From Betaproteobacteria bacterium (GTDB lineage Bacteria > Pseudomonadota > Gammaproteobacteria > Burkholderiales > Burkholderiaceae_A): 64,000 bases of DNA. Positions 1 through 20,817 of the stretch are shown here, piece after piece. Below the pieces are notes generated by a model. The model did no database searches, had not been told where the DNA came from, and saw nothing but the letters and a program-made list of their open reading frames with translations. The translations under genes were made by a program, and so were the position numbers. Location: positions 62,001-126,000 of the forward strand of contig VGHK01000001.1 in NCBI GenBank assembly GCA_016868305.1. The letters are read 5' to 3'. Within the stretch, counting starts at the first letter, position 1; the number at the start of each line of letters is the position of its first letter.

Positions 1-108
1 GGGCCCAAAGATTGCGACCAGCAGCATGCACGCAAAGAGGCTAAAGGCCAGCAAGGTGACTGGATTGCTCACCAGCACATAGCGAAGATGCTGAAAAAAG
101 CTAGCCAT
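1..108 (-). CDS. ABC transporter permease, DppC/OppC-like, N-terminal part (cut by window edge)
   Basis: Reading leftwards from an ATG at 108, 36 codons remain open to the window edge. They encode a short cytoplasmic lead (MASFFQHLRYVLVSNP) and a hydrophobic first helix ending in AIFGP, the usual opening of the second permease of dipeptide/oligopeptide-type importers. The ATG overlaps the stop of the preceding permease gene in ATGGCTAG, so the two are translationally coupled. It should form the channel heterodimer with the permease at 101-1120, fed by the binding protein at 1143-2753. ATPase genes would be expected beyond the window. Confidence 0.8.
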   Translation of the reverse strand, partial: MASFFQHLRYVLVSNPVTLLAFSLFACMLLVAIFGP

Positions 109-1120
109 CAATCTTCAACCGAGGGTCAATCAGTGTGTAGGCAATATCAACGCAGAGGTTGAGCAACACAAACAAAACGGCCATGGCCAGCACAAAGCCC
201 TGCACGGCGGCATAGTCGGAGGCAACCAATGCCTCAATGGCATAAGAGCCAATGCCGGGCCAGCTAAATACCTTTTCAACCAGGACATTGGCCCCCAGCG
301 AAAACGAAAAGACCATGCCAAGCGTGGTGACCACCGGAAGCAGGGCATTGCGCAGGGCATAACTGAATAGAACTTTTGACGAACGTAGGCCGCAGGCCTT
401 TGCGGTGCGGATGAAATCCGAGCCCAATGCCTGCAGCATTGAGGCCCGGGTCATACGCGCCAGCGGGGCCAAGGTAAAAAGCGCCAGGGTAATCGATGGC
501 AGCGCAAGCTGCTTTAGGGCAGACCAGGCCGTCTGCCACTCACCCGACAAGGGCGCATCAATCAGATAAAAACCCGTTACCTGGGGAGGCGGCAAGGAAA
601 TGATATCGATTCGGCCCAAGGGCGTTGGCGCAATTCCTAACAGGTAATAAAACACATAGACCAAGACCAGGCCGGTGAAAAAGGTGGGAAGACTTACCCC
701 TGCCGTAACAACAAATCGGCAGAGCTGGTCAATCCAGGTGTCTTGATTCAATGCAGCCAATACGCCTAATGGCACTGCGATCGAAACCGAAAGAAAAAGC
801 GCGACCAGGGTAAGCTCAAGAGAAGCTGGCAGTCGCTGAGCCAGATCGGTAAGTACTGGCTGGCCTGTCGATAAAGACTGACCAAGGTTGCCACGCAGCA
901 GGTCGGTAAGATAATCCAAAAACTGAACGGGCAGGGGCTGATCCAGGCCGAGTTGTGCTCGAACCTCTGCAATGGATTCGGTGGTGGCTGCCGGACCTGC
1001 AAAGAAAGCCGCCGGGTCTCCCGGCAGCGCCCGGGTCATGAGAAAGGTCACTACCAGAATCCCAAACAGGGTTGGCAGTGACTGACCCAGGCGACTGAGG
1101 ACCACGATGAAGCGAGACAT
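101..1120 (-). CDS. ABC transporter permease, DppB/OppB-like
   Basis: Inner-membrane channel subunit of a peptide/opine/nickel-type ABC importer. The protein has the family's N-terminal helix followed by ALPGDP, the GNLGQSL stretch, and a C-terminal half with six or so helices. The EAA loop region is around FIRTAKACGLRSSKV, and the end DPRLKIDG is typical of the DppB family. I start at ATG 1120; an in-frame TTG six codons earlier (1138) is possible. It lies 22 bp after the binding-protein gene and overlaps the next permease, so it is the middle gene of an operon running off the left edge. The substrate is inferred only from the neighbouring amidohydrolases. Confidence 0.88.
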   Translation of the reverse strand: MSRFIVVLSRLGQSLPTLFGILVVTFLMTRALPGDPAAFFAGPAATTESIAEVRAQLGLDQPLPVQFLDYLTDLLRGNLGQSLSTGQPVLTDLAQRLPASLELTLVALFLSVSIAVPLGVLAALNQDTWIDQLCRFVVTAGVSLPTFFTGLVLVYVFYYLLGIAPTPLGRIDIISLPPPQVTGFYLIDAPLSGEWQTAWSALKQLALPSITLALFTLAPLARMTRASMLQALGSDFIRTAKACGLRSSKVLFSYALRNALLPVVTTLGMVFSFSLGANVLVEKVFSWPGIGSYAIEALVASDYAAVQGFVLAMAVLFVLLNLCVDIAYTLIDPRLKIDG

Positions 1121-1142
1121 ATCGAACCCGGCCGGCAATGGC

Positions 1143-2753
1143 TTAGAGCTTTAACGATCGGGCATCGACTTGGCGGTGATACCAGAAGGTGTAGCCCGTT
1201 AACTTTTGTGCCATCGCAGATTCCAGAGTGGGCTGCCATAGAGGAATTCGCGGCAGGTCTTCGAATGCTTTTTCAATCAGCTGGCGAATCTTGGGTGCAT
1301 AGGCAGGGTCGCTGGGCTCCATGTGCAGGGTCTCGTTGACCAGTTGCCTAACGGTCTGGTCATCGTAGTTCGATGCATTAAAGAGGTTCTCTTTCAGGTA
1401 GGAGTAGTAGAAGTAGTAGCAGGGCGTGTTGAGCCAGCCACCAAAGTTTTCTAACAAGAAGGGAAACTTCTTCTCAACGAGTGCAAGCGTTCGCCAGTTT
1501 GCGCCGGGTACCTTATCGAGCGATACCTTGATGCCGATTTTCCCGAGGCTTTCTTGAATCAACAAGGCGGTGGGCTCTCCCCAGTCTGCCTCGCCAAGGT
1601 CAAACGACAATGGCACCTCAAAACCCTTGGGGAACTTACTTTTACTGAGTAAGGCCCTTGCCTGCTCCAGGTTCGTGCTATAGGGGAAGGGCTGCGGCCA
1701 TGCAATGCTGGAAGGCTTTGCCGACTTCGCACCCCACATGGGCACGCCACGGCCAAATGCCGCCTGATCAAAAATCTGTTGATAGGGAATGGCAAAGGCC
1801 ACTGCCTTGCGAACGTTCGAATCCTGAAAGGGCTCAAAGTTGTAGTTCAGGCAGGCCACATACAGGCAGTTGTCAATTGGCGAGCCCACCACCTTCACCT
1901 TTGCATTGCTCGCGAGCTCCTGGGCATCCTTGTTGGGAATCTGAAAGCTCAGCTGAACATCACCGCGTTCAATCAGCGCCCTACGTGTCGACTGCGAGGG
2001 TACCTCGCGAATGATGACGCGGCGAATCGCTGGCTTAGGCCCGCCCGCCCAGTCTTCGTTCCGAACATAGACAAGCTGCTGGCCCGCGTCCCAGCGTTCT
2101 ACCTTGTAAGCACCACTGCCCTGGGGATTCGTGTGCAGGAACTCAGCAGCCCAGGGGTCAGCGGCAGTGGCCTTTGCCTTAGCCGCCTTGGAATTGATCA
2201 CCACCGCGACAGGCACTGCTAGATTGGGCAGTGAGAGCTTGGAGGGCTGCTTCAAATTGACCTGAAAGGTTTTTGGATCGACGACTACGAACTGACCGGG
2301 ATCCACGAAACCACCCGCGCCCATCTGAAACCTTGGAAAGCCGCCCAGCGCCAAAGCGCGATCAAAAGACCACTTCACATCCTCAGCGGTGACCGGGCTT
2401 CCATCCCAGAACTGGGCATTGGCCTTGATCTTGAAGGTGATGGTCTTGCGATCCGGGCTGATGGTCCAGCTCTCGGCAAGCTCCGGAACTACCTTGCTGT
2501 AATCAAACGATAAAGAACCATCTTTCAGGGTTCGGGTGCCAAAACTTACTAGACGGTCATAGACATTGACTGCGACCTGATAACTCGGGCGGTTCGTGCC
2601 GGTCCGGTGTATATCAAGGCTGTTGATCGTATTGCCAATCACCACAACCGCGGTGTCGCCGGTCTGTGCAAATGCGGTGGACTTCAGAAAGGGCAGCATG
2701 GCAGCGCCAAGCGCGGCGCCAGAGGTGGTTTTCAGTAGATCGCGGCGGTTCAT
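1143..2753 (-). CDS. ABC transporter extracytoplasmic substrate-binding protein, family 5
   Basis: Periplasmic solute receptor for the importer encoded downstream. Residues 1-30 carry a Tat-like signal (MNRRDLLKTTSGAALGAA, cleavage near AFAQ). The mature part has SBP family 5 hallmarks: an early VVPELAESWTISPDRKTITF stretch, AQFWDGSPVTAEDVKWSFDRA, and a long two-lobed domain; about 536 residues is normal for the family. The start is ATG 2753, with an AGGAG Shine-Dalgarno 8 nt upstream; a longer in-frame start 32 codons earlier lacks family similarity. Family members bind peptides, opines, nickel or glutathione; given the nearby ureide/amide hydrolases an N-rich amide ligand is my inference. 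Confidence 0.88.
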   Translation of the reverse strand: MNRRDLLKTTSGAALGAAMLPFLKSTAFAQTGDTAVVVIGNTINSLDIHRTGTNRPSYQVAVNVYDRLVSFGTRTLKDGSLSFDYSKVVPELAESWTISPDRKTITFKIKANAQFWDGSPVTAEDVKWSFDRALALGGFPRFQMGAGGFVDPGQFVVVDPKTFQVNLKQPSKLSLPNLAVPVAVVINSKAAKAKATAADPWAAEFLHTNPQGSGAYKVERWDAGQQLVYVRNEDWAGGPKPAIRRVIIREVPSQSTRRALIERGDVQLSFQIPNKDAQELASNAKVKVVGSPIDNCLYVACLNYNFEPFQDSNVRKAVAFAIPYQQIFDQAAFGRGVPMWGAKSAKPSSIAWPQPFPYSTNLEQARALLSKSKFPKGFEVPLSFDLGEADWGEPTALLIQESLGKIGIKVSLDKVPGANWRTLALVEKKFPFLLENFGGWLNTPCYYFYYSYLKENLFNASNYDDQTVRQLVNETLHMEPSDPAYAPKIRQLIEKAFEDLPRIPLWQPTLESAMAQKLTGYTFWYHRQVDARSLKL

Positions 2754-3084
2754 TGTGGAGGCTCCTATAGACCCAAGGGGGTGGTGGCGGTGGGGCCGAT
2801 AGGGAGTCCATAGGGCAGGAGGACACATGTCACCCGGTGGGCACCGCAAGCCTTATGAATACCTATCGGTATACAAGATGGTATGCAGCAAATGTGCCAA
2901 TCTGCAGAATGGCGCGCAGATGCGGTTTACCACGATGGACGCCGGGGTCTTGCTAGGAAGCTGCCCTAAAATTGGGCAGGCTCTGCACCAGACTTGCTCT
3001 AAGGGGTTCGGTCCTGGTGCAGGTGATGGGCTAGGCTACTAACTATTTGGGCAACAGCCCCTGAAGTGTGACCGCGATGTTTTC
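2754..3084. other. 331-bp intergenic region between two same-strand genes
   Basis: This gap separates the gamma-glutamyltransferase-family gene from the binding-protein gene downstream of it on the minus strand. It must hold the end of one unit and probably the start of the next. The only structure I can support is the GGTAT/ATACC dyad cluster at 2859-2886. A 71-codon plus-strand reading frame here has no recognisable similarity and I do not call it. No Rho-independent terminator is evident. Confidence 0.5.
2859..2886. promoter_or_regulatory. Dyad cluster, candidate operator for a GntR/FCD-type repressor
   Basis: ATACC-TATC-GGTAT is an exact inverted repeat (2859-2872). It runs directly into the palindrome GTATAC (2869-2874), and a further GGTAT copy lies at 2880-2884. 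GTATAC-centred sites are typical of FCD-subfamily GntR regulators. It is about 106 bp upstream of the binding-protein start on the minus strand, a reasonable place for promoter-proximal control. No regulator gene is present in the window, so the assignment is inference. Confidence 0.35.
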
Positions 3085-4698
3085 TTAAAAAGCCGCTATA
3101 CCCCCGTTGGACCGGGGATCGAATCCGCCTTCCAGAACACCATTGGCATAACGCCGGATCATTCCTGCATGGCCCACGGACTCATCCCAGGCGCCAATCC
3201 GCTCGACCCAGTGTCCCTTTTTGGTCAGTTCCGCAAACACGGCATCTGAAAAACGCGACTCAAGCTTTAGGCTGTCGCTGGCATTGCCCCAGGTGCGGCC
3301 CAGTAGCCAGCGTGGCTGTGAGATAGCCTCTTGGGGGTTCAGCCCAAACCAATGTACGCGGCTAAAAAGCGTAGCCTGTGTCTGCGGCTGGCCATCGCCG
3401 CCCATGCTGCCATAGACCATGGTGCTGCCATCAGCGAGTTCGGCAAGCCCGGCGTTTAAGGTGTGGAAGGGCCGCTTACCCGGCGCCAGGCAGTTGATCT
3501 GCTGCGGATTGAGGCTAAAGCTGCACCCCCGGTTCTGCCAGTTGACACCGGTGGTGGGCAGGACAATGCCAGAGCCAAACTCATGGTAGATGCTCTGAAT
3601 AAAAGACACCGCAATGCCGTGCTGGTCGACCACACCCATCCACACCGTGTCACCCGGTTCGGTGGGCCGCCCCCAGGCGGCTGCGCGCGCGAGATCCACC
3701 TCGGATGCCAGGGCGTCAATGGCCTCGGGTGCGAGCAGGCTCTCGGGCGTGACGGTCATATGGCCAGGGTCGGTAAGGTGTTGGTTGCGTACCCGAAAGG
3801 CAAGCTTGGTGGCCTCCACCTGCAGGTGAATAAACCCGGCTGACTCGGGCCCATCAAGCGCATGGGGATGCTGCGCAACCACCCGGTTCATGATGGCCAG
3901 AATAAGCAGCGACACCAGCCCCTGCGAAGGCGGGCGCATATTGCGTAGCGCAGCGTTTTTTACTGCGTAGTGCAGCGGGTCTACCAGTCGGGCAGAAAAT
4001 TGCTGAAAGTCGGCTAGCGTAAGCGGGCTGCCCAGGGCCTGCAGGTCGTGGGCGTTGTCGCGCGCGATCTGCCCGCGGTAGAAGTCATCGAGCCCTGCGC
4101 GTACTAGGCGTTTAAAGGTGGCAGCAAGCCGTGGCTGTTTAAAGACTGTGCCCTGCGAGGGCGGCTTATGGTCTATGAGAAACGTGTCGGCAAACCCAGG
4201 AATGTCTTTGAGCTCCTCGTATTTGGCTGCCGTGTTGCTGGCCTGGCTCTGGCTAACCGGCATACCGTTTTCCGCCAGCCAGATGGTATCGGCTAAAAGT
4301 CGGCTTAAGGGCAGTCGCCCCCCGATTTTTCGAGAGACTTCGAGGGCCTTGGCCCATCCGCCCACGGTGCCTGCCACAGTAAGCGCCGCATCTTTTCCGC
4401 GAAAGGGAATGGCATCGGTAATGCCACGTTGGTCGCGATAGTGATCAATGCTGGCAGCGGCCGCACTCGGCCCACTGGCATCGATACCACCAGGTACGCC
4501 ATGAGGCCCGCGCATCACCCAAAAGGCATCGCCCCCAATCGCGTTCATATGGGGGTAGACCACGGCAATGGTCGCAGCAGCGGACACCATGGCTTCAAGT
4601 GCGTTGCCCCCTTCACGCAGCACCGCGACTGCGGATTCCGACGCCAGGCTGTGCGGGGCAACCGCCATGCCCCGCCTGCCGATCGTCGCGTGGTTCAC
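3085..4698 (-). CDS. Gamma-glutamyltransferase-family amidohydrolase (possible oxamate amidohydrolase, HpxW-like)
   Basis: Ntn-hydrolase of the gamma-glutamyltransferase family, made as a proenzyme that self-cleaves before a catalytic threonine. The probable nucleophile is T351 in GDTVWMGVVDQHG, aligning with the TTHFS-type cleavage site, and the small subunit contains the glycine-rich YGSMGGDGQPQTQ loop. No signal peptide is visible, so it is probably cytoplasmic, unlike periplasmic Ggt. It starts at GTG 4698, overlapping the upstream amidohydrolase stop in GTGA, so the two are coupled. Because its neighbours are an M20 ureido hydrolase and a hydantoin-type racemase, an HpxW-like role in releasing ammonia from oxamate or a related amide fits better than glutathione turnover. 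That role is inferred, not shown. Confidence 0.8.
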   Translation of the reverse strand: MNHATIGRRGMAVAPHSLASESAVAVLREGGNALEAMVSAAATIAVVYPHMNAIGGDAFWVMRGPHGVPGGIDASGPSAAAASIDHYRDQRGITDAIPFRGKDAALTVAGTVGGWAKALEVSRKIGGRLPLSRLLADTIWLAENGMPVSQSQASNTAAKYEELKDIPGFADTFLIDHKPPSQGTVFKQPRLAATFKRLVRAGLDDFYRGQIARDNAHDLQALGSPLTLADFQQFSARLVDPLHYAVKNAALRNMRPPSQGLVSLLILAIMNRVVAQHPHALDGPESAGFIHLQVEATKLAFRVRNQHLTDPGHMTVTPESLLAPEAIDALASEVDLARAAAWGRPTEPGDTVWMGVVDQHGIAVSFIQSIYHEFGSGIVLPTTGVNWQNRGCSFSLNPQQINCLAPGKRPFHTLNAGLAELADGSTMVYGSMGGDGQPQTQATLFSRVHWFGLNPQEAISQPRWLLGRTWGNASDSLKLESRFSDAVFAELTKKGHWVERIGAWDESVGHAGMIRRYANGVLEGGFDPRSNGGIAAF

Positions 4699-5978
4699 GG
4701 GCGTACGACTTCCGCCTGCGCAAGCATTGCGTCGAGTAGTACCTGGGCGCCCGCAGCAATATGCGCTGGCTCGGCGTCCTCGATCTCATTGTGTGAGATG
4801 CCGTCTTTGCAGGGAATAAAGATCATCGCCGCCGGCGCAGTGCGTGCCACGTATACGGCATCGTGCCCTGCACCACTGACAACGGGCATAAAAGAATAAC
4901 CACGCTGTTGGGCTGACTCGGCGATGGCTGCCTGCAGCGCGGTGTCAAAGGGCGCCGGTGGGTAATAGACCACCTGTTCCACCGTCACAGAGATCTTGTC
5001 GTTGGTCTGCGACTGGGCCCAGGTCTGCAGGGCCTCATTCATTGCAGAAAGCCCCTCATCGGTGGGATGGCGAAAGTCAACGGTCATTTTCACCTGCCCG
5101 GGGATGACATTGCGCGAACTCGGATGCACCTGCAGATGGCCCACGGTGCCCCGGCCGTGCGGGCTGTGGGAGAGCGCAATGCGGTTGACTTCTTGCACCA
5201 GTGCAGCGGCAGGCAGCAGGGCGTCACGGCGCAGTTGCATAGGGGTAGGACCCGCATGGGCCTCCATGCCGGTAATGGTGATGTCGTACCAGCGCTGGCC
5301 CAGAGCGCCACTCACCACGCCAATGGTCTTGTTGGCGGCCTCAAGCACGGGCCCTTGTTCTATATGGGCCTCGAAGTAGGCCGCGAATCGCGGGGCACCT
5401 TGCGAGAGACTGGCAGGGGCCTCGCCACGAAAACCAATGGTTTCTAATGCGGCTTTGACCGAAATTCCATCGCGGTCTTTGGCAGACCATGCATGCTCGA
5501 GCGTGAAGGCATCGACATAGACCCCCGAGCCCATCATGACGGGAACAAACCGTGAGCCCTCTTCGTTGGTCCAGACGCAGACCTCGAGTGGCGCGCGTGT
5601 GCGTATGCCGGCATCGTTAAGGGCCGCAATAACCTCGAGCCCCGCGAGCACACCGTAGTTGCCATCGAACTTACCACCAGTGGGCTGCGTATCGATATGG
5701 CTACCCGTGCCGATGGCGGGCAGATGGTTCTCGGTGCCCGCACGACGCGCAAAGATGTTGCCAATGGCATCGATGCGAATCATGCAGCCCAGGGCGGTGG
5801 CCCATTCCACAAAAAGACTGCGCGCCTGACGGTCGAGCTCGGTAAGCGCCAGTCGGCAGACACCGCCTTTCTGCGTAGCACCAATCTGGGCAAGCTGCAT
5901 AAGGCGACTCCAGAGTCTGTCGCCGTTGATGGTGATGTAGGGCTGCACAAGGGGATCCCTGGGGTCGCGCATGTTCAT
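4695..5978 (-). CDS. M20-family Zn/Mn amidohydrolase (allantoate amidohydrolase or N-carbamoyl-L-amino-acid hydrolase)
   Basis: Cytoplasmic metal-dependent hydrolase of the AllC/HpxK/HyuC group, about 427 residues as usual. Metal ligands are visible: H94 in GTGSHIDTQPTGG, D105 in GKFDGNYGV, the glutamates of WTNEEGSRF (139-140), H205 in FEAHIEQGP and a C-terminal histidine in GAGHDAVY. The family cleaves ureido groups such as allantoate or N-carbamoyl amino acids, releasing ammonia and CO2. It is coupled to the following GGT-family gene by a 4-nt overlap and lies 82 bp after the racemase gene. Racemase, carbamoylase and amidohydrolase together point to ureide or hydantoin breakdown. Allantoate and carbamoyl-amino-acid specificity cannot be separated by eye. 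Confidence 0.87.
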   Translation of the reverse strand: MNMRDPRDPLVQPYITINGDRLWSRLMQLAQIGATQKGGVCRLALTELDRQARSLFVEWATALGCMIRIDAIGNIFARRAGTENHLPAIGTGSHIDTQPTGGKFDGNYGVLAGLEVIAALNDAGIRTRAPLEVCVWTNEEGSRFVPVMMGSGVYVDAFTLEHAWSAKDRDGISVKAALETIGFRGEAPASLSQGAPRFAAYFEAHIEQGPVLEAANKTIGVVSGALGQRWYDITITGMEAHAGPTPMQLRRDALLPAAALVQEVNRIALSHSPHGRGTVGHLQVHPSSRNVIPGQVKMTVDFRHPTDEGLSAMNEALQTWAQSQTNDKISVTVEQVVYYPPAPFDTALQAAIAESAQQRGYSFMPVVSGAGHDAVYVARTAPAAMIFIPCKDGISHNEIEDAEPAHIAAGAQVLLDAMLAQAEVVRP

Positions 5979-6060
5979 AGCTTTACTCTCTAAAGTAAAT
6001 CAGGTGAAAAACTGAAGTGTGATTGGTCTGCACCATAGCTTCCTTGGCAAGCCCAAAGGC

Positions 6061-6804
6061 TTACGCCCTGCGTGGCCAGCCCAATGGGGCCGCCCAGCCC
6101 AGATAGGTTTTCTCAAGGGGGCGGGCATAGTTGCATCGTTTGCTGGTCTTTAAACCAAGCCCATGCAGAGCCTCGAGAAGCTTGACCGCAGCCGCAACGC
6201 CATCAATCACGGGTACCCCAAGCCGTTGCTGCAGCGCCTCGCATAGGGGCGCCATGCCCGCACAGCCCAGCACGATGGCATCGCTTCTGTCTTTCTCTAA
6301 AGCCTCTTGGCAGGCTGCGAACAACTGCGCTTGCAGGCCATTCCCGGCAGCTTCGAGCGCGAGAACCGGAACATCGGTGCCGTGAATTCCCCGGCACTGT
6401 CGCTCAAACCCGTATTTCACGACCAGGTGTTCCGCGATGACGCAGGTGCGGGTCATGGTAGTGACTATCGAAAACCCTGAGGAGACCATCGAGGCGGCAT
6501 GAAATGCCGCCTCTGCAATACCGAGTACGGGGCAGGTGAGGGCCTCGCGCGCGGCGTCTAGGCCGGGGTCGCCAAAGCAGGCAAGGGCTAGGCCCTGGAT
6601 ATCCTGGGCATCACTGGCCCGAACGCGCGCGGCCACACCGGCTGCTGCGATCGCTTCATCGTAGAAACCCTCAATCGACACCGGCCCAAACTCCGGCTGC
6701 ACGGCAAGAATCTCAGTTGCCGGCCCCGCCACAGCCTGTGCGGCGCGGCCGATGGATGCAGTCATACCATGCGAGGTATTTGGGTTGAGCACCATGATTC
6801 TCAT
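6061..6804 (-). CDS. Asp/Glu/hydantoin racemase family protein (allantoin or hydantoin racemase)
   Basis: Cofactor-independent two-cysteine racemase, 247 residues. The two catalytic cysteines are visible: C76 in GLALACFGDPGLD and C181 in IVLGCAGMAPL, with the N-terminal LNPNTS motif typical of hydantoin and allantoin racemases (HyuE/HpxA type). It would interconvert enantiomers so the stereospecific downstream hydrolase can use both. It is the first gene of the minus-strand catabolic unit and diverges from the sigma-54-driven transporter operon at 7050. I see no sigma-54 site on its own strand. No hydantoinase or allantoinase gene is in the window, so the ring-opening step would be encoded elsewhere. 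Confidence 0.85.
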   Translation of the reverse strand: MRIMVLNPNTSHGMTASIGRAAQAVAGPATEILAVQPEFGPVSIEGFYDEAIAAAGVAARVRASDAQDIQGLALACFGDPGLDAAREALTCPVLGIAEAAFHAASMVSSGFSIVTTMTRTCVIAEHLVVKYGFERQCRGIHGTDVPVLALEAAGNGLQAQLFAACQEALEKDRSDAIVLGCAGMAPLCEALQQRLGVPVIDGVAAAVKLLEALHGLGLKTSKRCNYARPLEKTYLGWAAPLGWPRRA

Positions 6805-6903
6805 AGGAACACTTTAGAGGTTTTTACGGATTGTCCCAAGTAGTTCGCGCGCACACCCTTCCATGGTGCATTTTGCGAGCGATGCATACTCGTCGGGCAG
6901 ATC

Positions 6904-6920
6904 TGCACTGATTTGGTGTC
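6904..6920 (+). promoter_or_regulatory. Candidate NtrC enhancer site
   Basis: TGCACT-GATTT-GGTGTC matches the NtrC consensus TGCACY-N5-RGTGCA at all but the last two positions. It is centred about 97 bp upstream of the -12 element of the sigma-54 promoter at 6995-7010, within the usual range for enhancer sites. It also lies in the upstream region of the divergent racemase gene, so both units could respond to nitrogen status. Confidence 0.55.
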
Positions 6921-6994
6921 GTCTCGCATCTCGCCCGTTTCTTGGAATGTCCCTGCGGGGCGGTAGTTGGTAGTTTTTCTCGTGCCCGCTTGAT

Positions 6995-7010
6995 TGGCAC
7001 GTCGATTGCA
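6995..7010 (+). promoter_or_regulatory. Sigma-54 (RpoN) -24/-12 promoter
   Basis: TGGCACG-TCGA-TTGCA is a full match to the sigma-54 consensus TGGCACG-N4-TTGCW, with the invariant GG (6996-6997) and GC (7008-7009) separated by exactly 10 bp. Transcription should begin near 7021, leaving a leader of about 29 nt with an AAAGGAG ribosome-binding site (7035-7041) before ATG 7050. It should drive the whole operon from the binding protein through to the ATPases and probably the amidase. Confidence 0.85.
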
Positions 7011-7049
7011 ACGAAGTTGTGGTTTTCTTTCCTCAAAGGAGTCTGCACC

Positions 7050-8726
7050 ATGCCTGCTCAAATTGCTTCCCAATCCTGGTTGAAGCGCTCACTTATCGCC
7101 GCCGTGGCCACGGGTGTTGTGGTGATGGCCCTAAGCCAGCCCGCGCTGTCTCAAGAGAAGGTCTTGCGCATTGCCATGACCGCTGCCGATATTCCTCGCA
7201 CGCTCGGTCAGCCTGACCAAGGCTTCGAGGGCAATCGGTTCACCGGGATTCCGATGTACGACGCGCTTACCCACTGGGATCTGTCTAAGTTTGACGGCCC
7301 CAGCGTTCTTATTCCCGGTCTGGCGCTTTCCTGGTCTGCCGACCCGAAAGACCGCACAAAGTGGACGTTTCGACTGCGTTCGGGCGTGAAGTTCCACGAT
7401 GGCTCCGACTTTAATGCCGATGCGGTGGTCTGGAATGTGCAAAAGGTACTCGACAAATCCGCCCCGCACTTTGATGCCAGCCAGGTGGGTGTCACCGCCT
7501 CGCGTATGCCTACGCTGCGCACTGCCCGCAAGATCGACAATCTCACGGTAGAGCTCACCTCCAGTGAACCGGATGCCTTCCTGCCGTTAAACCTTACCAA
7601 CCTCTTTATGGCCTCGCCTGCCCACTGGGCGGCAAAGCTGCAGGCCGTGCCTGCCAGCGTCACAGACCCGGCAGAGCGTGCCAAGCAGGCCTGGGCCGCA
7701 TTTGCGGCTGATGCCTCAGGAACTGGCCCTTTCCGTATGGCCCGTTTCGTGCCTCGCGAGCGGCTTGAGCTACTGCCCAACAAGGCCTACTGGGATCCCA
7801 AGCGCACGCCCAAGATTGACCGCGTGGTGATGCTTCCTATGCCGGAGGCCAATGCGCGCACTGCGGCGCTGCTCTCAGGGCAGGTGGACTGGATTGAGGC
7901 GCCCGCGCCTGATGCCATGAAGCAGATTACCCAGCGTGGCTTTACCATCTATAGCAACGCCCAGCCCCATGTCTGGCCCTGGCAGCTCTCGTTCGTTGAG
8001 GGCTCTCCTTGGCTGGATCGCCGGGTGCGGCATGCGGCCAATCTGTGTGTCGACCGCGAGGGTCTTAGAACTCTCCTGGGCGGAATGATGGCAATACCCA
8101 AGGGCACCGTGCCTCCAGGCCATCCCTGGTGGGGCGACCCCAAGTTTGATATTCGCTACGACGTCGCGGCTGCCCAGAAGCTCATGACCGAGGCAGGTTT
8201 TAGTGCCAGCAAGCCCATGAAGGCCAAGGTGCAAATTTCCGCCTCGGGTTCGGGTCAGATGCAGCCGCTGCCGATGAATGAGTATGTGCAGCAGTCGCTC
8301 AAGAAGTGCTACATCGATATCGAGTTTGATGTCATTGAGTGGAACACGCTCTTCACCAACTGGCGTGTTGGGGCCAAAGACCAGACCGCGAACGGGGCGC
8401 ATGCCATTAATGTCAGCTTTGCCGCTATGGACCCCTTCTTTGCCATGGTGCGGTTCACCAGTACCAAAACCTTCCCGCCGGTCTCAAACAACTGGGGTTA
8501 CTTTGGCAATGCCGAGTTCGATAAGCTTATTGCCGATGCACGCCAGACCTTTGACGATAAGGGCAGAGATGCCGCGCTGGCACGGCTGCATGCCCGCATC
8601 GTGGAGGAAGCACCTTTTGTATGGATTGCCCACGACGTTGGCCCGCGGGCTATGAGCAAGCGCATTAAAAACTTTGTGCAGCCTCGCAGCTGGTTCGTTG
8701 ATCTTGCGCCCATTACGATGGACTAG
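7050..8726 (+). CDS. ABC transporter extracytoplasmic substrate-binding protein, family 5
   Basis: Solute receptor of the second importer. Residues 1-35 form a Sec-type signal (LKRSLIAAVATGVVVMALS, cleavage near ALSQ). The mature protein has SBP-5 motifs: LALSWSADPKDRTKWTFRLR, GVKFHDGSDFNADAVVWNV, TGPFRMARF and the late NWGYFGNAEFDKLI segment; 558 residues fits the family. ATG 7050 is supported by the AAAGGAG site and by its position just downstream of the sigma-54 promoter; a longer in-frame start at 6942 would overlap that promoter and is rejected. A hairpin follows the gene before the permeases, a common way to make more binding protein than channel. Confidence 0.9.
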   Translation: MPAQIASQSWLKRSLIAAVATGVVVMALSQPALSQEKVLRIAMTAADIPRTLGQPDQGFEGNRFTGIPMYDALTHWDLSKFDGPSVLIPGLALSWSADPKDRTKWTFRLRSGVKFHDGSDFNADAVVWNVQKVLDKSAPHFDASQVGVTASRMPTLRTARKIDNLTVELTSSEPDAFLPLNLTNLFMASPAHWAAKLQAVPASVTDPAERAKQAWAAFAADASGTGPFRMARFVPRERLELLPNKAYWDPKRTPKIDRVVMLPMPEANARTAALLSGQVDWIEAPAPDAMKQITQRGFTIYSNAQPHVWPWQLSFVEGSPWLDRRVRHAANLCVDREGLRTLLGGMMAIPKGTVPPGHPWWGDPKFDIRYDVAAAQKLMTEAGFSASKPMKAKVQISASGSGQMQPLPMNEYVQQSLKKCYIDIEFDVIEWNTLFTNWRVGAKDQTANGAHAINVSFAAMDPFFAMVRFTSTKTFPPVSNNWGYFGNAEFDKLIADARQTFDDKGRDAALARLHARIVEEAPFVWIAHDVGPRAMSKRIKNFVQPRSWFVDLAPITMD

Positions 8727-8746
8727 GTGGTTCCTGGCCGTGTCCC

Positions 8747-8781
8747 TGCCCTCTACCGCGACTCCACTGCGTTAGAGGGCA
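8747..8781 (+). repeat. Intercistronic hairpin after the binding-protein gene
   Basis: TGCCCTCTA (8747-8755) pairs perfectly with TAGAGGGCA (8773-8781) across a 17-nt loop. There is no U tract, so it is more likely an mRNA-stabilising or partial-termination structure than a full terminator. Its place between binding protein and permeases matches the known differential-expression hairpins of binding-protein operons. Confidence 0.6.
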
Positions 8782-8809
8782 GGATGCCCGAGAGGGCAAA
8801 AGGGGCGTT

Positions 8810-9763
8810 ATGGTTTCTTTCATATTGCAGCGCATTTTGGTAACCCTGCCCATTATGCTGGGTGTGGCCTTGGTCTGTTTTGGCCTGGTGCATCTCGCGC
8901 CAGGCGACCCTCTGGTGTCTATTCTGCCGCCCGATGCCTCTGCGGAGCTGCAGGCGCAGTTGATGGCGCTTTATGGCTTTGATCGGTCTTATTTCGAGCA
9001 GTTTGTCTCTTGGGTATGGAGAGCTATACAGGGTGATCTCGGTACCTCAATTGCCACAAATCGGCCGGTAGCCGATGAGGTATTTAAGGCCGTTGGCAAC
9101 ACGCTGCGGCTTGCCCTGGTGGCCACCATTATTGGGTTCTTGTTTGGCTGTCTGTTCGGGTTTGTGGCTGGTTATTTCCAAAACTCCTGGATAGACAAGC
9201 TGGCCTCTTTTGTCTCGGTCTTGGGCGTGAGTGTTCCGCACTACTGGCTGGGCATGGTGATGGTGATCATCTTTTCATCAATACTCATGTGGCTTCCGGC
9301 CAGTGGGGCCGGGCCGGGCAGTTCTGCAGACTGGGCCTGGGACTTCGAACACATTAAGTTTCTGATTCTTCCGGCGCTCACCATGAGTGTGATTCCCATG
9401 GGTATCGTTTCGCGCACGGTGCGTGCGCTGGTGGCCGAAACCCTTGCCCAGGAGTTTATTGTAGGCCTCAAGGCCAAAGGCATGCGCGACTTCGGTATCT
9501 TCATGCACGTGGTGAAAAACGCAGCGCCCACGGCGCTTGCGGTCATGGGTCTGCAACTGGGCTACCTGCTGGGTGGCTCTATTCTTATCGAAACCGTGTT
9601 CTCCTGGCCAGGCACGGGCTTTCTGTTGAATTCGGCGATCTTTCAGCGTGACCTGCCGTTACTGCAGGGAACGATTCTTGTGCTAGCTGTTTTCTTCGTT
9701 GTGCTGAACCTGGTGGTCGATGTTATTCAGACGCTGCTCGATCCACGGATCGCGAGAGGCTGA
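8810..9763 (+). CDS. ABC transporter permease, DppB/OppB-like
   Basis: Channel subunit of the second importer, 317 residues, six predicted helices. Family signs are the opening FILQRILVTLPIMLGV, then HLAPGDP, QGDLGTS, the cytoplasmic loop FIVGLKAKGMRDFGI that docks the ATPases, and the C-terminal DPRIARG. It lies 83 bp after the binding-protein gene, with the hairpin between, and 2 bp before the partner permease. Transport specificity is not readable from the sequence; control by the sigma-54 promoter suggests a nitrogen source. Confidence 0.92.
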   Translation: MVSFILQRILVTLPIMLGVALVCFGLVHLAPGDPLVSILPPDASAELQAQLMALYGFDRSYFEQFVSWVWRAIQGDLGTSIATNRPVADEVFKAVGNTLRLALVATIIGFLFGCLFGFVAGYFQNSWIDKLASFVSVLGVSVPHYWLGMVMVIIFSSILMWLPASGAGPGSSADWAWDFEHIKFLILPALTMSVIPMGIVSRTVRALVAETLAQEFIVGLKAKGMRDFGIFMHVVKNAAPTALAVMGLQLGYLLGGSILIETVFSWPGTGFLLNSAIFQRDLPLLQGTILVLAVFFVVLNLVVDVIQTLLDPRIARG

Positions 9764-9765
9764 AC

Positions 9766-10659
9766 ATGACCGCGCTCTCGGGATTTCCTTCGACCTCAGG
9801 CATCAGCCCGGTGGTGGCCTCGCCGGGCTATTGGCAGACGGTCTTTCGCAGGGTCATGGCAGACCGCGTGGCCATGTTTGCGGGCCTGGTGATTCTCTTT
9901 TTATTGGTTCTGGTGGTCTTTGGCCCGCTGATCGCGCCACTGGATCCCTATCAGGCCTCCATGATGAAGCGGCTGCGGCCCATTGGTACTGAGGGCCATC
10001 TGCTGGGTACCGATGAACTCGGCCGTGACATGCTCTCGCGGCTGATTGTGGGAGCACGGCTGTCCTTGTTTATGGGAATCACGCCCGTGATCTGCGCCTT
10101 TGTCTTGGGCTCGCTTATCGGCATTGTCGCGGGCTATGCCGGCGGCCTGGTGAACACCCTCACGATGCGCACGATTGATGTCTTTTATGCCTTTCCGTCG
10201 GTACTGCTGGCCATTGCCTTGTCGGGGGCCCTAGGCGCTGGTATTACCAATTCGCTCATCTCATTGACCATCGTTTTTATTCCTCCCATTGCCCGTGTGG
10301 CAGAAAGCGTTACTACGCAAATTCGCAGCCGCGATTTTGTGGAGGCCGCCCGGGCCTCGGGCGCATCGGCATTTACCATTGTGCGGGTGCATGTCTTGGG
10401 TAATGTGCTGGGGCCCATCTTTGTCTATGCCACCAGCCTGATCGCTGTCTCGATGATTCTCGCCTCGGGCCTGAGCTTTCTGGGCCTGGGTGTGAAGCCT
10501 CCGGAGCCCGAGTGGGGGCTGATGCTCAATACTCTGCGCACGGCCATCTATGCCCAGCCGTGGATAGCAGCTCTGCCAGGGGTCATGATCTTTATGACCT
10601 CGATTGCCTTTAACCTGCTTGCCGATGGACTGCGTTCGGCTATGGAGATAAAGCAGTGA
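9766..10659 (+). CDS. ABC transporter permease, DppC/OppC-like
   Basis: Second channel subunit, 297 residues. It shows the DppC-type N-terminal helix ending in [10 protein letters not shown], the [16 protein letters not shown] motif, and the EAA-like loop [15 protein letters not shown] followed by [17 protein letters not shown], all characteristic. Its TGA stop overlaps the ATG of the first ATPase gene (TGATG), so translation is coupled. It pairs with the permease at 8810-9763. Confidence 0.92.
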
Positions 10660-11654
10660 TGGCCGCACCCAAGGTGGCCTTGGAGGCCCGGGGGCTGGTG
10701 AAGCATTTTCCGCTCAAGCGCGATGTGCTGGGTCGTGGTGGGGGTCTGGTACGCGCGGTCGATGGCGTTGACCTCACGGTGTTCGAAGGGGAGACGCTGG
10801 GCGTGGTGGGGGAGTCTGGCTGTGGTAAGTCCACCACCGCGCGGCTACTCATGCACCTGCTGTCGCTTACCTCGGGCGAGATTGTCTTTGATGGAAAACC
10901 CGTTGGTGGCAGTGGGCTTGGCCTGCGCGCCTTTCGTCGCCAGGTGCAGATGGTCTTTCAAGACAGCTACGCCTCGTTAAATCCTCGGCTTACCATCGAA
11001 GACTCGGTGGCCTTTGGCCCGCAGGTGCATGGTATGGCACAGGCCGAGGCAGTCACTGTCGCCCGCGACCTGCTCACCAAGGTGGGTCTAGACCCCAACC
11101 GGTTTGCCACACGCTATCCGCACGAGCTATCGGGAGGCCAGCGACAGCGGGTGAACATTGCCCGGGCATTGGCCTTGCACCCGCGGCTGGTCATTCTTGA
11201 TGAGGCCGTTTCGGCGCTCGATAAATCGGTTGAGGCCCAGGTGCTTAATCTTCTGCTCGATCTGAAAGACGAGTTTGGGCTTACCTATGTCTTTATCAGT
11301 CACGACCTGAATGTGGTGCGGGCTATTTCCGATCGTGTGGTGGTGATGTACCTGGGGCAGGTGGTGGAGATTGGTCCGAGCGAGTCGATTTTTGCTGAGC
11401 CGAAGCACCCCTATACCCGCGCCTTGCTGTCTTCCATTCCATCCATGGATCCGGCCGATCGGACCGAAAAGCCGCCGCTCATGGGTGACCCGCCCAATCC
11501 TATTAATCCGCCTTCAGGCTGCCGTTTTCATACCCGATGTCCCCATGCCCAGCCGGTATGTTCCGAGCGCACCACCAGCCTAACCTCTGGCGAGCATCAG
11601 GTGGCCTGTCATATGTATGTGCATGGAAGCGGTCATACCGAGGTAGGGGTATGA
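10659..11654 (+). CDS. ABC transporter ATP-binding protein, OppF/DppF-like
   Basis: Nucleotide-binding subunit with Walker [11 protein letters not shown]-loop [13 protein letters not shown], signature [15 protein letters not shown], Walker [12 protein letters not shown] and the switch histidine in FISHDLNVV. The C-terminal oligopeptide-transporter extension with clustered cysteines ([15 protein letters not shown]) is typical of OppF, which can bind an Fe-S cluster. I start at ATG 10659; a GTG one codon earlier (10656) is equally in frame. It overlaps the next ATPase gene in ATGA. Confidence 0.93.
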
Positions 11655-12691
11655 CACCTTCCGCCACAGACGCGATAATGGCCACAGCGCAGACAACCCA
11701 GCCGCAACAGGCTGAGCCCTTTGTATCGATTCGTAACCTGCGTGTGGGATTTCGGTCTGGGCGCGATCAGTATGTCCAGGCGGTCAATGGCGTTGACCTC
11801 GATGTGGCACGCGGCGAGGTGGTTGCCCTGATCGGCGAGTCGGGCTCGGGCAAGAGCGTCACCCTGCGTTCGATTCTGCGGTTGCACGCCGAGAAGCGCA
11901 CCGACATGTCTGGCAGCATTCGGGTGGGCGGGCAGGAGGTGCTCACCATGGCGCCCAATACCCTGGCGGATTTTCGTGGCCTTGTGGCATCCATGATCTT
12001 TCAGGAGCCGCTTCTGGCGCTTGACCCCGTTTTTACGGTGGGCGATCAGATCGCCGAGACCATCCTGCGCCACGAGTCAGTATCGCGGGCCGACGCCATG
12101 GCCCGTGCCCTGGCCTTGTTCGAGCAGGTACGTATTCCGAGCCCCGAGCGACGGCTAAAGGCCTATCCGCATGAGATGTCTGGTGGTATGCGGCAACGGG
12201 CGATGATTGCCCTTGCGCTGGCCTGTCGGCCGCAGTTGTTGCTTGCCGATGAGCCCACCACCGCCCTCGATGCCACGGTGCAGATTCAGATTCTGCTCTT
12301 GCTGCGCGAGCTGCAACGCGACCTGGGGCTCTCGGTGGTGTTCGTCACCCACGACATTGGCGCCGCGGTCGAGGTAGCCAATCGTATTGCCGTGATGTAT
12401 GCCGGACAGATTGTCGAAGAAGGGCCGGTGGAGGCCGTGATTCGGGAGCCCAAGCATCCCTATACCCAGGCACTGCTCTATAGCCGTGCCCATGGGCGCA
12501 TGAATAAGGGCGATCGCCTCAAGACGATTGCCGGGGCGCCGCCTGATTTGTCTGAGCCTATCCAGGGCTGCCCATTTGCCCCACGGTGTGAGTTTGCAAT
12601 GCCGGTCTGTCGTGGGGAGTCTCCAGTGGAGACCCAGCTCCCGGGTTATCATCGTGCCCGGTGTTTTCTGCTCTCAGAAGGCGCCCAATAG
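11651..12691 (+). CDS. ABC transporter ATP-binding protein, OppD/DppD-like
   Basis: Second nucleotide-binding subunit, 346 residues. It has Walker A GESGSGKSVT, Q-loop MIFQEPLLALDP, signature MSGGMRQRAMIALAL, Walker B LLLADEPTTALD, FVTHDIGAA, and the C-terminal GCPFAPRCEFAMPVC cysteine motif. The start at ATG 11651 overlaps the upstream stop by 4 nt; a longer frame from 11537 would run inside the previous gene and is not used. ATPase motifs are all intact. An 81-bp gap separates it from the amidase, with no terminator seen. Confidence 0.93.
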   Translation: MTPSATDAIMATAQTTQPQQAEPFVSIRNLRVGFRSGRDQYVQAVNGVDLDVARGEVVALIGESGSGKSVTLRSILRLHAEKRTDMSGSIRVGGQEVLTMAPNTLADFRGLVASMIFQEPLLALDPVFTVGDQIAETILRHESVSRADAMARALALFEQVRIPSPERRLKAYPHEMSGGMRQRAMIALALACRPQLLLADEPTTALDATVQIQILLLLRELQRDLGLSVVFVTHDIGAAVEVANRIAVMYAGQIVEEGPVEAVIREPKHPYTQALLYSRAHGRMNKGDRLKTIAGAPPDLSEPIQGCPFAPRCEFAMPVCRGESPVETQLPGYHRARCFLLSEGAQ

Positions 12692-12772
12692 GTGATAGGC
12701 AGTGGGCACACGTAAACAAGCAATAGGCCTGCGACTCCCAAGGTTCCGAAGATACAAAAAAGGCATTCACGC

Positions 12773-13948
12773 ATGATGCATGACCCCGCCCGGGCATTTA
12801 TGCCGTACCCCGCTGTCCCTGTTGCAGCCGCCTCCACGGGCCCTTTAACGGGCCTGCGTTTTGGTGTGAAAGACCTATTTGATGTGGCAGGCTACCCCAC
12901 CAGTGGGGGCCAGCCTTTTGTACTTGCAATGTCTGGCATTAAGCAGAACAACGCCCAGACCGTACAGCGTCTTCTTGATGCCGGGGCCCAGTTTGCAGGA
13001 AAAACTGTTACCGATGAGTTCGCCTTTTCGATGAACGGGCAGAACGCCCACTTCGGGTCTCCCATTAATGGCGCGGCACCTGATCGCATCTCAGGTGGGT
13101 CTTCGTCGGGTTCTGCGGCGGCCGTGTCGCATGCGCTGGTTGACTTTGCCCTGGGCACGGATACCGGCGGGTCGGTGCGTGCACCGGCAAGCCATTGTGG
13201 CCTGGTGGGTCTGCGCCCCAGTCATGGCCGGGTGAGCCTCTTGGGGGCGCTCGACCTGGCACCGAGCCTGGATACCTGCGGATGGTTTACGCGTGACCTG
13301 CCCACCTTTTTGCGGATCGGCGAGGTACTGCTAGGGCCTGACGCCAAGGCACTCCCGGCGCAACCTCGTTTGCTGTATCCCAAAGAGGTATGGGGACTGC
13401 TCTCGCCCGAGGTGTCAGCGGCCTATGCGCCTGCACTCGACAAGATCACCCGTACCTATGGCACACCGCAGCCTGTCGAGGTTCTCAACGGCCATAGCTT
13501 TGACGCGCTTTATTGGGGATTTCGGTATATCCAAGGCCATGAGGCATGGAAGACCGACGGCGCACTGATCGAGCGGTTTCACATGCCCTTGGGCCCAGGG
13601 GTGGCCCAACGGTTTGCCTGGTCAAAAGCAGTAACCGACGACCAGTGGAACAAGGGGCTTTCCCTGCGTACCGCGTACCGCAGTTTTCTTGCCGATCTTC
13701 TGGGGGACGATGGCATGATGGTGATGCCCACCATGCCCGACGTGGCGCCCCTTATTTCTGCCGATGAGTCTTCGCTGGAAGACTATCGCAACAAGGCAAT
13801 TCAAATGCTGTGTATTGCTGGGCTCACCGGGTTTCCGCAGCTGAGCCTGCCTTGGGCCTCACGTCTGGATGCGCCCTTGGGAATCTCTCTTTTTGGCCCT
13901 TCGGGTAGCGACCTCAGCCTCATTCAGCGCGCCTTGCAAAGTCAGTAA
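12773..13948 (+). CDS. Amidase (amidase signature family)
   Basis: Serine amidase with the Ser-cisSer-Lys triad of the amidase signature family. K33 lies in FGVKDLFDVAG, the serine-rich GGSSSGSAAAV loop is at 108-118, and the nucleophile is S134 in TDTGGSVRAPAS. The length, 391 residues, is short for the family but compatible with AtzE/HpxY-like enzymes. It follows the second importer operon in the same direction by 81 bp and probably acts on the imported compound or a breakdown product, releasing ammonia. No GatA-type partner genes are nearby, which argues against a Glu-tRNA amidotransferase. The exact substrate is unknown. Confidence 0.85.
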   Translation: MMHDPARAFMPYPAVPVAAASTGPLTGLRFGVKDLFDVAGYPTSGGQPFVLAMSGIKQNNAQTVQRLLDAGAQFAGKTVTDEFAFSMNGQNAHFGSPINGAAPDRISGGSSSGSAAAVSHALVDFALGTDTGGSVRAPASHCGLVGLRPSHGRVSLLGALDLAPSLDTCGWFTRDLPTFLRIGEVLLGPDAKALPAQPRLLYPKEVWGLLSPEVSAAYAPALDKITRTYGTPQPVEVLNGHSFDALYWGFRYIQGHEAWKTDGALIERFHMPLGPGVAQRFAWSKAVTDDQWNKGLSLRTAYRSFLADLLGDDGMMVMPTMPDVAPLISADESSLEDYRNKAIQMLCIAGLTGFPQLSLPWASRLDAPLGISLFGPSGSDLSLIQRALQSQ

Positions 13949-17397: not shown

Positions 17398-17775
17398 TGG
17401 TATCGCCAAAAAAGGAAAAGACGCGCGTCAAATGACAAGGGATGAGTCTATCTGCTCGGCCTTGCCTGAATCGATGCCTCAGGTCTAGCGTTAACCCTAG
17501 GCCTCCCTTTCCACTTGACTGTCAACAAGACCCGGTGTGCCAGGCTGTCGCGCTCTTTTTGGGTCGATGCTTGGGGTACCGACTTTTGCAACGAATCGTC
17601 CTCGGAGAAGGGGGGGTTGCGTATTGGCTGAGGAGGGAGTAGGGTCTTTTTATGGCGATCTCTCACGAGAGGCTAGAAGCTAGGGCATGGGGTGATTATT
17701 TCCAGGCGTCTTGCGGTTTTGCTGGTCTGGTTGCCCCAAGCAAACGAGTGTTAATTGACTCAAGGAGACAACAAG
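17398..17775. other. Divergent intergenic region between moeA and fdnG
   Basis: About 378 bp hold the control signals of the moeA-mobA and formate dehydrogenase units. I see a strong AAGGAG ribosome-binding site for fdnG (17762-17767) and a short dyad CCTGA/TCAGG (17466-17484). I do not see a convincing sigma-54, FNR or sigma-70 site. Two overlapping reading frames of about 70 codons have no similarity and are not called. Confidence 0.5.
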
Positions 17776-20700
17776 ATGAATGCACCAGTGTCTCGTCGGC
17801 AGTTCTTTAGAATCTGCGCGGCGGGGGTTGCAACGTCCTCTATTGTCGGGCTAGGGCTTGCACCGGTCAGCGGCTTCGCCGAGGTCCGAGCATACAAGCT
17901 TGCCCGCACGACAGAGACCCGGGGTATGTGCCCCTATTGTTCGGTGAGCTGCGGTGTGGTCATGTACAGCCGCGAAGAACAAGGCAAGCGAAAGATCATC
18001 CATATCGAGGGCGACCCCGATAATCCTGTTAACAAAGGAACGCTCTGCCCGAAGGGCGCTGGCCTGCTCGACATGGTCCATTCTCCTAACCGTCTGCTGC
18101 ACCCCGAGGTGCGCGAAGCCGGTACGGGACAGTGGAAGCGAATCTCCTGGGACGACGCGCTGGAGCGTGTAGCGCGGCACATGAAAAAAGACCGGGACGC
18201 GAACTTTATCGAAAAAAACACCAGTGGAGTAACCGTAAACCGCTGGCCAAGTACGGCCATGCTGGTCTCTAGCGCGGTGAGCAACGAGACTGGTTATGTG
18301 GCCATTAAAATGGCCCGCGGTCTGGGGTTAGTTACTCTCGATACCCAAGCACGTATCTGACATGCCCCGACGGTAGCCAGTCTGGCTCCGACGTTTGGGC
18401 GTGGTGCAATGACCAACGGATGGGTTGACATTCGTAATGCCGATCTTGTGCTTGTCATGGGCGGAAATGCCGCAGAAGCGCATCCCTGCGGGTTTAAGTG
18501 GGTTACCGAGGCGATGGAGCATCGCAAGGCTCGGCTCGTCGTGGTGGACCCAAGGTTTACCCGATCGGCTGCGATTGCCGATGTCTACGCCCCACTCAGG
18601 GTCGGGACCGACATTGCCTTTCTCGGCGGTGTGGTGAACTACCTGCTGGCCAATGACAAGATCCACAAAGACTACGTCAACAATTACACCAATGCGTCCT
18701 TCATTGTTGGTAAAGACTACAACTTTGAAAATGGGCTTTTCTCCGGCTACGACGAGGGCAAGCGTTCATACGACCGCAAGGCTTGGGCCTACGCCATGGG
18801 TTCCGATGGCTTTGTGTCGGTCGACCCGACGCTCAAAGACCCACGGTGTGTCTTTCAGCTGATGAAGACCCACTTTAGCCGGTACACGCCCGAGAAGGTC
18901 GAGGAAATCTGCGGTACGCCTAAGGACAAGTTCCTGAAGGTAGCCCAGATGATGGGAGAGACCTGTACCCCCGATAAAGTGATGACCATTCTGTACGCCT
19001 TGGGCTGGACGCAGCACACGGTGGGCTCTGAGAACATTCGCACCATGGCGATGATTCAGCTGCTGCTCGGTAATATCGGCAGGGCTGGTGGCGGTGTGAA
19101 CGCGCTCCGGGGTCATGCCAATGTCCAAGGAATTACGGATCTCTGCCCATTTGCGGCCAGCATGCCTGGTTACCTGTCTGCGCCGACCGACGCCGATGAC
19201 ACCTATGCCAAGTTTATCGAGGCACGGGTGCCTAAAGAGCTGCGGCCGAATTCGGTTAACTTCTGGAAGAACTTCCCGAAGTTTCAGGTTAGCCTGATGA
19301 AGGCCTGGTGGGGAGATGCGGCCACGAAGGAAAATGACTTTGCCTACGACTACTTCCCCAAACGGGATCATGTCTACGACATCATGCACACCTTCGAGCG
19401 GGCGTCCAACGGTGAGCTCCGGGGCTTGATCTGCCAGGGCTTTAACCCCATGGCTGCCATGCCAAACAAGACAAAACTTGAGACGGCGCTCTCGAAGCTC
19501 GATTACATGGTGGTGCTCGATCCCCTTAAGACAGAGTCTGCCGAGTTCTGGAAGTCGTTTGACCAGTATCACAAGGCCGATCCCGCCAAGATCAAGACCG
19601 AGGTGATCCGGCTCCCGACATCCTGTTTCGCGGAAGACCCAGGAACCTTCACCAATTCGGGTCGGGTTCTTCAGTGGCACTGGGCTGCGGCCGATCCTCC
19701 CGGGGAGTCCAAGACCGATCGAGAGATTTTTGGGGAACTCTTTGTTCGACTGCGCGAGATGTACGCCAAAGAGGGTGGCAAAAACCCAGTGCCTCTGCTG
19801 AAGATGTCCTGGAACTATGCCAACCCTAAAAATCCCTCCCCCGAAGAAGTCCTGCGAGAGATCTCAGGCAGCACTTCGGCTGACATTGTCAACCCCGATA
19901 CCAAGGAGGTCTTGGTGAAGGCGGGTGGACAGATCGCCGGCTTTGGAATGCTTAAAGACGATGGCACCACTGCCTGTGGGAACTGGATCTATGGTGGCGC
20001 CTGGTCGGAGCGAGGCAACCTAACCGCTCGTCGAAGCAAAGAAGACCCGGGCGAGATGGGCAACTTCCTGAACTGGGGCTTCGCATGGCCGGCAAACCGC
20101 AGGGTGTTGTATAACCGGGCGGGGACCGATCTTGCAGGCGAACCTTGGGATAAAAGCCGTAGCTCCATTAGCTGGGATGGTAGCAAGTGGTCTGGCCCTG
20201 ATATTCCAGATATGCCTCCGACCAACAAGGATGCGGGTCCTTTCATCATGACCCCTGGTGGTGTGGCCAATCTGTACGCACCCATGGCCGAAGGCCCCTT
20301 TCCTGAGCACTACGAGCCGTTTGAGACGCCATTGGGCCGTAACCCCATGAACACCAATCCCAAGGCGGTGAGTAACCCAGCGGCGCGCATCTTCAAGTCA
20401 GTGGCCGGCACTTTCGGAACCCCCGATAAGTTCCCGTATGCTGCAACAACCTACCGGCTTACCGAGCATTACCATTTCTGGACCAAAAATGTCGTCTCTA
20501 ACTCGATTGTTCAGCCTAGCCCGTTTGTAGAAATCAGCGAGCAGCTGGCCAAAGAGAAAGGCATTCGCAATGGTCAAATGGTGCGGGTCTGGAGCAACCA
20601 TGGCGAGATCAAGGCTGCTGCGGTTGTCACCAAGCGGATGCCATCCTTGAAGGTCGCGGGCAAGACGGTCGAGACGGTTGGTATCCCGATCCACTTCGGT

Positions 20701-20817
20701 TTTGTGGGTGTGGCAAAAAGTGGGTTTCTGGCCAATGCGCTGACACCGTACGTGGCAGACGCTAACTCGCAGACGCCGGAGTACAAGGCGTTTCTTGTCA
20801 ACATTGCTAAGGCATAA
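17776..20817 (+). CDS. fdnG: Formate dehydrogenase-N/O alpha subunit, selenocysteine-containing (UGA recoded)
   Basis: Catalytic Mo-bisMGD subunit of respiratory formate dehydrogenase, exported by Tat to the periplasm. The in-frame TGA at 18358-18360 encodes selenocysteine (U195), not a stop. The flanks [24 protein letters not shown] match the known FdnG/FdoG Sec site, and a SECIS hairpin follows. Read through, the protein is about 1013 residues, the family's usual length. The N-terminus has a Tat signal ([12 protein letters not shown]) and a [4Fe-4S] motif ([11 protein letters not shown] ... LCPKG). ATG 17776 is chosen over a TTG at 17755 because AAGGAG lies 8 nt upstream. It is first in fdnGHI-fdhE-selAB. 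It oxidises formate and passes electrons through FdnH to FdnI and quinone. Confidence 0.96.
18358..18391 (+). promoter_or_regulatory. Bacterial SECIS element for UGA recoding
   Basis: Immediately after the UGA, GG-U-AGCC (18372-18378) pairs with GGCT-CC (18384-18389). This leaves a bulged U at 18374 and an AGUCU apical loop containing the GU that SelB recognises. The architecture (bulged U plus GU loop at this distance from the codon) mirrors the E. coli fdhF and fdnG elements. SelB, encoded at 24775-26661, should bind it. Confidence 0.88.

Follow-up and report, generated by a model that had tools for sequence, protein, structure and literature searches.

Comparative-genomic reconstructions of NtrC regulons in Proteobacteria give a core of glnA, amtB and ntrBC together with taxon-specific nitrogen-scavenging genes, and the allophanate hydrolase gene atzF is given there among the NtrC-regulon genes of Rhizobiales (PMC5343134). 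In Burkholderia cenocepacia H111, expression of xanthine dehydrogenase, a urate oxidase cluster, allantoicases, and a dipeptide-type ABC importer depends on NtrC, and an ntrC mutant grows poorly on allantoin (PMC5491218). The locus analysed here resembles the H111 regulon in bringing together NtrC, purine/allantoin genes, and a dipeptide-type importer (the importers being likened by type alone), but differs from it in that the B. cenocepacia importer is linked to an alanyl-alanine dipeptidase (PMC5491218). The importer operon described below is not named in the main-text account of the reconstructed regulons (PMC5343134).

NtrC control of nitrogen-scavenging genes is, therefore, already known, and the locus in our window (the entire 64,000-nucleotide stretch of betaproteobacterial DNA that was analysed) is, as predicted from its sites and their conservation, a new example of it. 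Our literature search returned no earlier account of the operon, which we call importer 2, nor of a GntR operator placed on a sigma-54 −12 box.

Two further groups of described systems invite comparison. The Klebsiella hpx genes (a purine/allantoin catabolic set that includes those for HpxW and HpxA) share with the window an HpxW-like amidohydrolase and an allantoin-racemase-like protein, with probable allantoin/oxamate chemistry and a probable role in the use of a nitrogen source; unlike hpx, the window adds two peptide-type ABC importers, an M20 amidohydrolase, an amidase, and an allophanate hydrolase. Like the Dpp, Opp, and Nik importers, importer 2 consists of a family 5 binding protein, two permeases, and two ATPases. 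Unlike in those systems, the match to every curated dipeptide, nickel, or glutathione model falls short of the cut-off (DppA scores 80.9 bits against a cut-off of 1005 [SBP2] and DppB 189 against 590), and the neighbouring enzymes are of ureide type; with the curated models so far below their cut-offs, we rejected assignment by name to dipeptide, nickel, or glutathione transport. The generic label ‘dipeptide transporter’ can thereby be replaced with a testable statement, namely that this is an RpoN/NtrC-controlled nitrogen-scavenging importer that probably takes up nitrogen in ureide or amide form; since dozens of genomes keep the control, a culturable strain of Hydrogenophaga, Variovorax, Ramlibacter, or Pseudorhodoferax would serve for such a test.

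Sigma-54 and NtrC-like sites before importer 2

Importer 2 is encoded on the forward strand by genes for an SBP_bac_5 substrate-binding protein (7050–8726), permease B (8810–9763), permease C (9766–10659), ATPase D (10656–11654), and ATPase F (11537–12691 as the open reading frame is listed, the true start probably lying near 11651), and its last gene encodes an amidase (PRK08310 equivalog; 12773–13948) that occupies the same place in two related loci (L164 and L165). The ATG of the binding-protein gene at 7050 has AAAGGAG upstream. Before it, TTGGCACGTCGATTGCA at 6994–7010 (+) agrees with a sigma-54 −24/−12 promoter at all thirteen scored positions, with a predicted start near 7021. The initial annotation had claimed a perfect match to TGGCACG-N4-TTGCA, and this is what we found: TGGCACGTCGATTGCA at 6995–7010 (+) has zero mismatches, the preceding T completes the 13/13 score, and GG and GC stand 10 bp apart within YTGGCACG-N4-TTGCW. 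Just two 13/13 sites occur in the window, this one and another at 2900–2884 (−). Across the 2.26-Mb genome, the exact pattern is present in two copies (before importer 2 and before flgB) and the same pattern read backwards, which served as a control, in none; the looser YTGGYAYR-N4-YTGCW yields 14 sites against two control sites, including those before flgB, flhA, a flagellin gene, and both importers.

The candidate NtrC enhancer, TGCACTGATTTGGTGTC at 6904–6920, is centred 97 bp from the −12 element, the distance given in the initial annotation, and 109 bp from the predicted start, which places it 80–150 bp upstream as a TGCACC-N5-GGTGCA dyad of an NtrC regulon would be. It departs from TGCACC-N5-GGTGCA at three of twelve fixed positions and from GCAC-N7-GTGC at one of eight (GTGT in place of GTGC), and on its own is a moderate match and not significant, about one site of such a score being expected per 64 kb of shuffled sequence; we estimate from that rate that the probability of a chance location in the 130-base enhancer zone is about 0.2%. 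Imperfect as it is, the site ranks first among 63,984 window positions when scored with a matrix trained on orthologue sites only (consensus tGCACCannntGGTGCa), and alignment with close relatives puts it at the homologous place, in the same position as the NtrC-like sites of L009, L010, and L057. A possible second site, TGCATACTCGTCGGGCA at 6883–6899, lies 21 bp upstream and is weak (score 5.4, rank 80).

Conservation was assessed in 80 loci from named, nearly all betaproteobacterial genomes with binding-protein relatives at 76–87% identity, 78 of them with upstream sequence that could be used. Within 190 bases upstream of the start, 65 of 75 orthologues carry a sigma-54 site scoring at least 12/13, against two on the reverse strand and zero to two in the five control zones taken from these loci; once this conservation is counted, the match in the window clearly appears not to be due to chance. 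We then examined, with no motif chosen beforehand, all 4,352 palindromic 4+4 dyads (gaps of 0–16, one mismatch) upstream of the sigma-54 sites in 68 non-redundant sequences, the window's own included. CACC-N5-GGTG ranked first (33 loci against 4.3 expected), followed by the GntR-like motif TGTATACA, GCAC-N7-GTGC (35 loci against 7.1 expected), and ACCA-N3-TGGT; the first, third, and fourth of these are nested registers of TGCACCA-N3-TGGTGCA, the NtrC consensus, with z values of 10.5, 8.6, and 6.6 where the largest in shuffles was 3.2. Of 71 enhancer zones, 37 hold an NtrC-like site with at most one mismatch, against 1–11 in control zones, about half of the orthologues having no such site in the enhancer zone, and several loci (L023, L028, L032, and L037) carry paired sites 20 bp apart. 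Shuffles and control zones remove the kinship of the orthologues only in part from these counts. The initial annotation had named the conservation of both motifs upstream of orthologous binding-protein genes as a check on its proposal, and both are enriched there, which supports, at the level of predicted sites, its claim that nitrogen limitation controls the importer 2 operon with its amidase.

The genome encodes the regulators that such control would need. An rpoN gene is present (L001; E 1.2e-62, TIGR02395 above its cut-off), as are ntrB and ntrC (L085; PRK11073 and TIGR01818 above NCBIfam cut-offs), which share a contig with glnA; the latter has a sigma-54 site and a GCAC-N7-GTGC dyad of its own (CGCACTAAATAAGTGCG and CCGGCACGGAAACTGCA).

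Importer 1, the divergent racemase unit and a GntR-like operator

Importer 1 lies on the reverse strand, with a substrate-binding protein gene at 1143–2753 and a permease gene at 101–1138, followed beyond the window edge by permease C, a fused ATPase, an allophanate hydrolase (above two cut-offs), and, at the operon's end, a GntR/FCD regulator. Its sigma-54 promoter, TTGGCACATTTGCTGCA at 2884–2900 (−), scores 13/13 and is an addition to the initial annotation, which had missed it. Tandem NtrC-like sites stand before it at 2962–2978 and 2984–3000. The four closest relatives of importer 1 (L140–L143, 76–79% identical) each have a counterpart sigma-54 site, 68–73 bases from the start, with NtrC-like sites farther upstream, and because importer 1 thus has parallel sites that are kept in relatives, both importers appear to belong to the nitrogen regulon. 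At the predicted start of importer 1 is a GntR-like operator sequence, TTGTATACCG at 2867–2876 (−), which also occurs downstream of the −12 box in three of the four relatives (L141–L143).

A related operator bears on importer 2. In 24 of 74 orthologues, a GntR-like operator, TTGCATACAA, has the TTGCA of the −12 box as its first half, always at an identical offset, and most operator-bearing loci that have the divergent racemase carry a second copy 29–50 bases before it. The operator-bearing loci fall within L004–L081 of our series. In the window itself, both copies are eroded: the remnant at importer 2, TTGCAACGAA at 7006–7015 (+), overlaps the −12 box as TTGCATACAA does in the 24 relatives, and differs at three positions from the TTGTATACAA-type operator that those relatives possess. 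The GntR encoded with importer 1 was considered as the TTGCATACAA repressor and rejected, a close homologue being absent from some operator-bearing relatives; near the GntR homologues found in relatives, no TTGCATACAA operators were seen. The sharing of letters between the −12 box of a short promoter and a putative repressor operator may be a variant that deserves attention.

The divergent racemase (6061–6804, −) has as its closest solved structures the hydantoin/allantoin racemases 3qvj and 5lfd. The initial annotation had suggested that this unit was possibly under nitrogen control as well, a suggestion that we do not uphold. No sigma-54 site scoring at least 9/13 faces the racemase on the minus strand of 6801–7060, and among relatives with a divergent racemase, even a weak one is present in only five of 24; a sigma-54 promoter for the racemase was accordingly rejected, and because such sites are missing in the window and few in relatives, the unit is without a direct tie to NtrC. 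In relatives, the racemase is instead linked to the importer by the shared, predicted GntR-like operator.

Proposed control and its rivals

We consider it very probable, from the sites, their conservation, and the regulators encoded, that 6994–7010 is a working sigma-54 promoter served by an NtrC enhancer at 6904–6920, with a parallel promoter at importer 1 and likely import of ureides or amides. Under nitrogen limitation, NtrC-P would bind 6904–6920 (a second dimer may occupy the site 21 bp upstream), and looping would bring it to RNA polymerase–sigma-54 at 6994–7010; transcription would then begin near 7021 and extend through importer 2 and its amidase, the promoter at 2900–2884 acting in parallel for importer 1. 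Both importers would most likely supply ureide or amide nitrogen (allantoin, oxamate, or related compounds) to the racemase, the amidohydrolases, the HpxW-like enzyme, and the allophanate hydrolase.

The genome encodes just two full sigma-54 activators, NtrC and the L084 protein, and the existence of the latter, together with the imperfection of the window's single NtrC site, leaves room for a real sigma-54 promoter whose enhancer serves another activator, such as this one, and answers a signal other than nitrogen. The L084 protein, however, has no receiver domain, and it is encoded approximately 7 kb from flgBCD on a contig that also holds flhA, so that its role is probably flagellar. Because the only alternative to NtrC lacks a receiver domain and is encoded near flagellar genes, NtrC is the likely activator; moreover, the motif that emerged unprompted from the orthologues is the NtrC consensus and glnA in the same genome has an NtrC-type dyad. 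We regard control by another activator as quite unlikely. One may also suppose that both sites are chance matches and that a sigma-70 promoter drives transcription. An NtrC-like score this high does arise about once per 64 kb in shuffles, but the sites are conserved across orthologues whose flanks diverge and no sigma-70-like site is present in 6700–7100, and we hold this supposition to be highly improbable.

Control mainly by substrate through a GntR-type repressor, sigma-54 providing only the competence to start and nitrogen playing a minor part, would also fit three observations: TTGCATACAA overlaps the −12 box in 24 of the 74 orthologues, a further copy stands before the racemase, and TTGTATACCG lies where importer 1 is predicted to start. 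Sigma-54 promoters require an activator, however, and the operator survives in the window only as the remnant TTGCAACGAA and is lacking from most orthologues, whereas nearly all keep the sigma-54 site; predominant substrate control is, in our judgement, improbable here. Nitrogen control through NtrC, which we prefer, can be combined with the operator in a more tentative proposal, somewhat short of an even chance in our estimation: many Burkholderiales relatives may possess a single AND-gate promoter in which NtrC reports nitrogen need and release of GntR reports substrate, and the window's lineage may have lost the repressor half while retaining a consensus sigma-54 site, leaving importer 2 to answer nitrogen only.

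Probable ureide context and distribution of the cluster

Next to the racemase, on the reverse strand, lie genes for an amidohydrolase of the M20 hydantoinase/carbamoylase family (4695–5978) and an Ntn amidohydrolase (3085–4698). The best match of the latter is the chain pair of 5hft, which we take to be Klebsiella HpxW, an oxamate amidohydrolase: the two chains give E values of 1.5e-95 and 1.9e-78, whereas the best chain of the classical gamma-glutamyltransferase 2e0w gives 8e-43, and Thr351, with which the second chain begins, is retained and aligns with the first residue of 5hft chain B, as would befit a sequence of HpxW type. Pfam and NCBIfam would label this product a gamma-glutamyltransferase, which is likely a mis-annotation; with 5hft scoring far better, a true gamma-glutamyltransferase was rejected.

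Elsewhere in the genome, contig C46 carries xanthine dehydrogenase, urate oxidase, a PuuE allantoinase, and an apparent fusion of UraD with an allantoate-type amidohydrolase; neither a sigma-54 nor an exact NtrC-type site turned up on this purine cluster fragment. Related genomes (L011 and L164–L166) have a PuuE allantoinase and M20 hydrolases near the importer 2 operon, on the opposite strand, and the neighbours differ in other relatives (uronate genes in Paracoccus, a Zn-hydrolase in Klebsiella). Together, these surroundings suggest the catabolism of ureides (allantoin/oxamate) or related amides rather than the use of peptides, and because of the HpxW-like enzyme, the racemase, the allophanate hydrolase, and the purine-degradation genes, a ureide or amide is our best guess for the substrate. 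The initial annotation had narrowed the substrate to a nitrogen source, with which the neighbouring enzymes and the purine-degradation genes agree, and had missed the ureide signature. In three relatives (L167, L168, and L059), two binding-protein genes lie beside one importer operon, which suggests a diversified substrate range; the binding proteins of L167 and L168 are about 50–60% identical to the query.

Searches of same-genus genomes yielded neither importer, and genomes of the same family lack a close copy; copies at 77–83% are present in more distant genomes of the order. This distribution suggests that the cluster at 101–13948 was gained by transfer or lost repeatedly. Further along the window, 17755–20817 (+) encodes a formate-dehydrogenase-like molybdopterin oxidoreductase whose reading frame contains a TGA at codon 202 (18358–18360), and a SECIS_3 element lies directly on that TGA (18355–18413; 79.3 bits, E 2.3e-18). 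The product is predicted to be a selenoprotein, whose gene is split in two by open reading frame callers.
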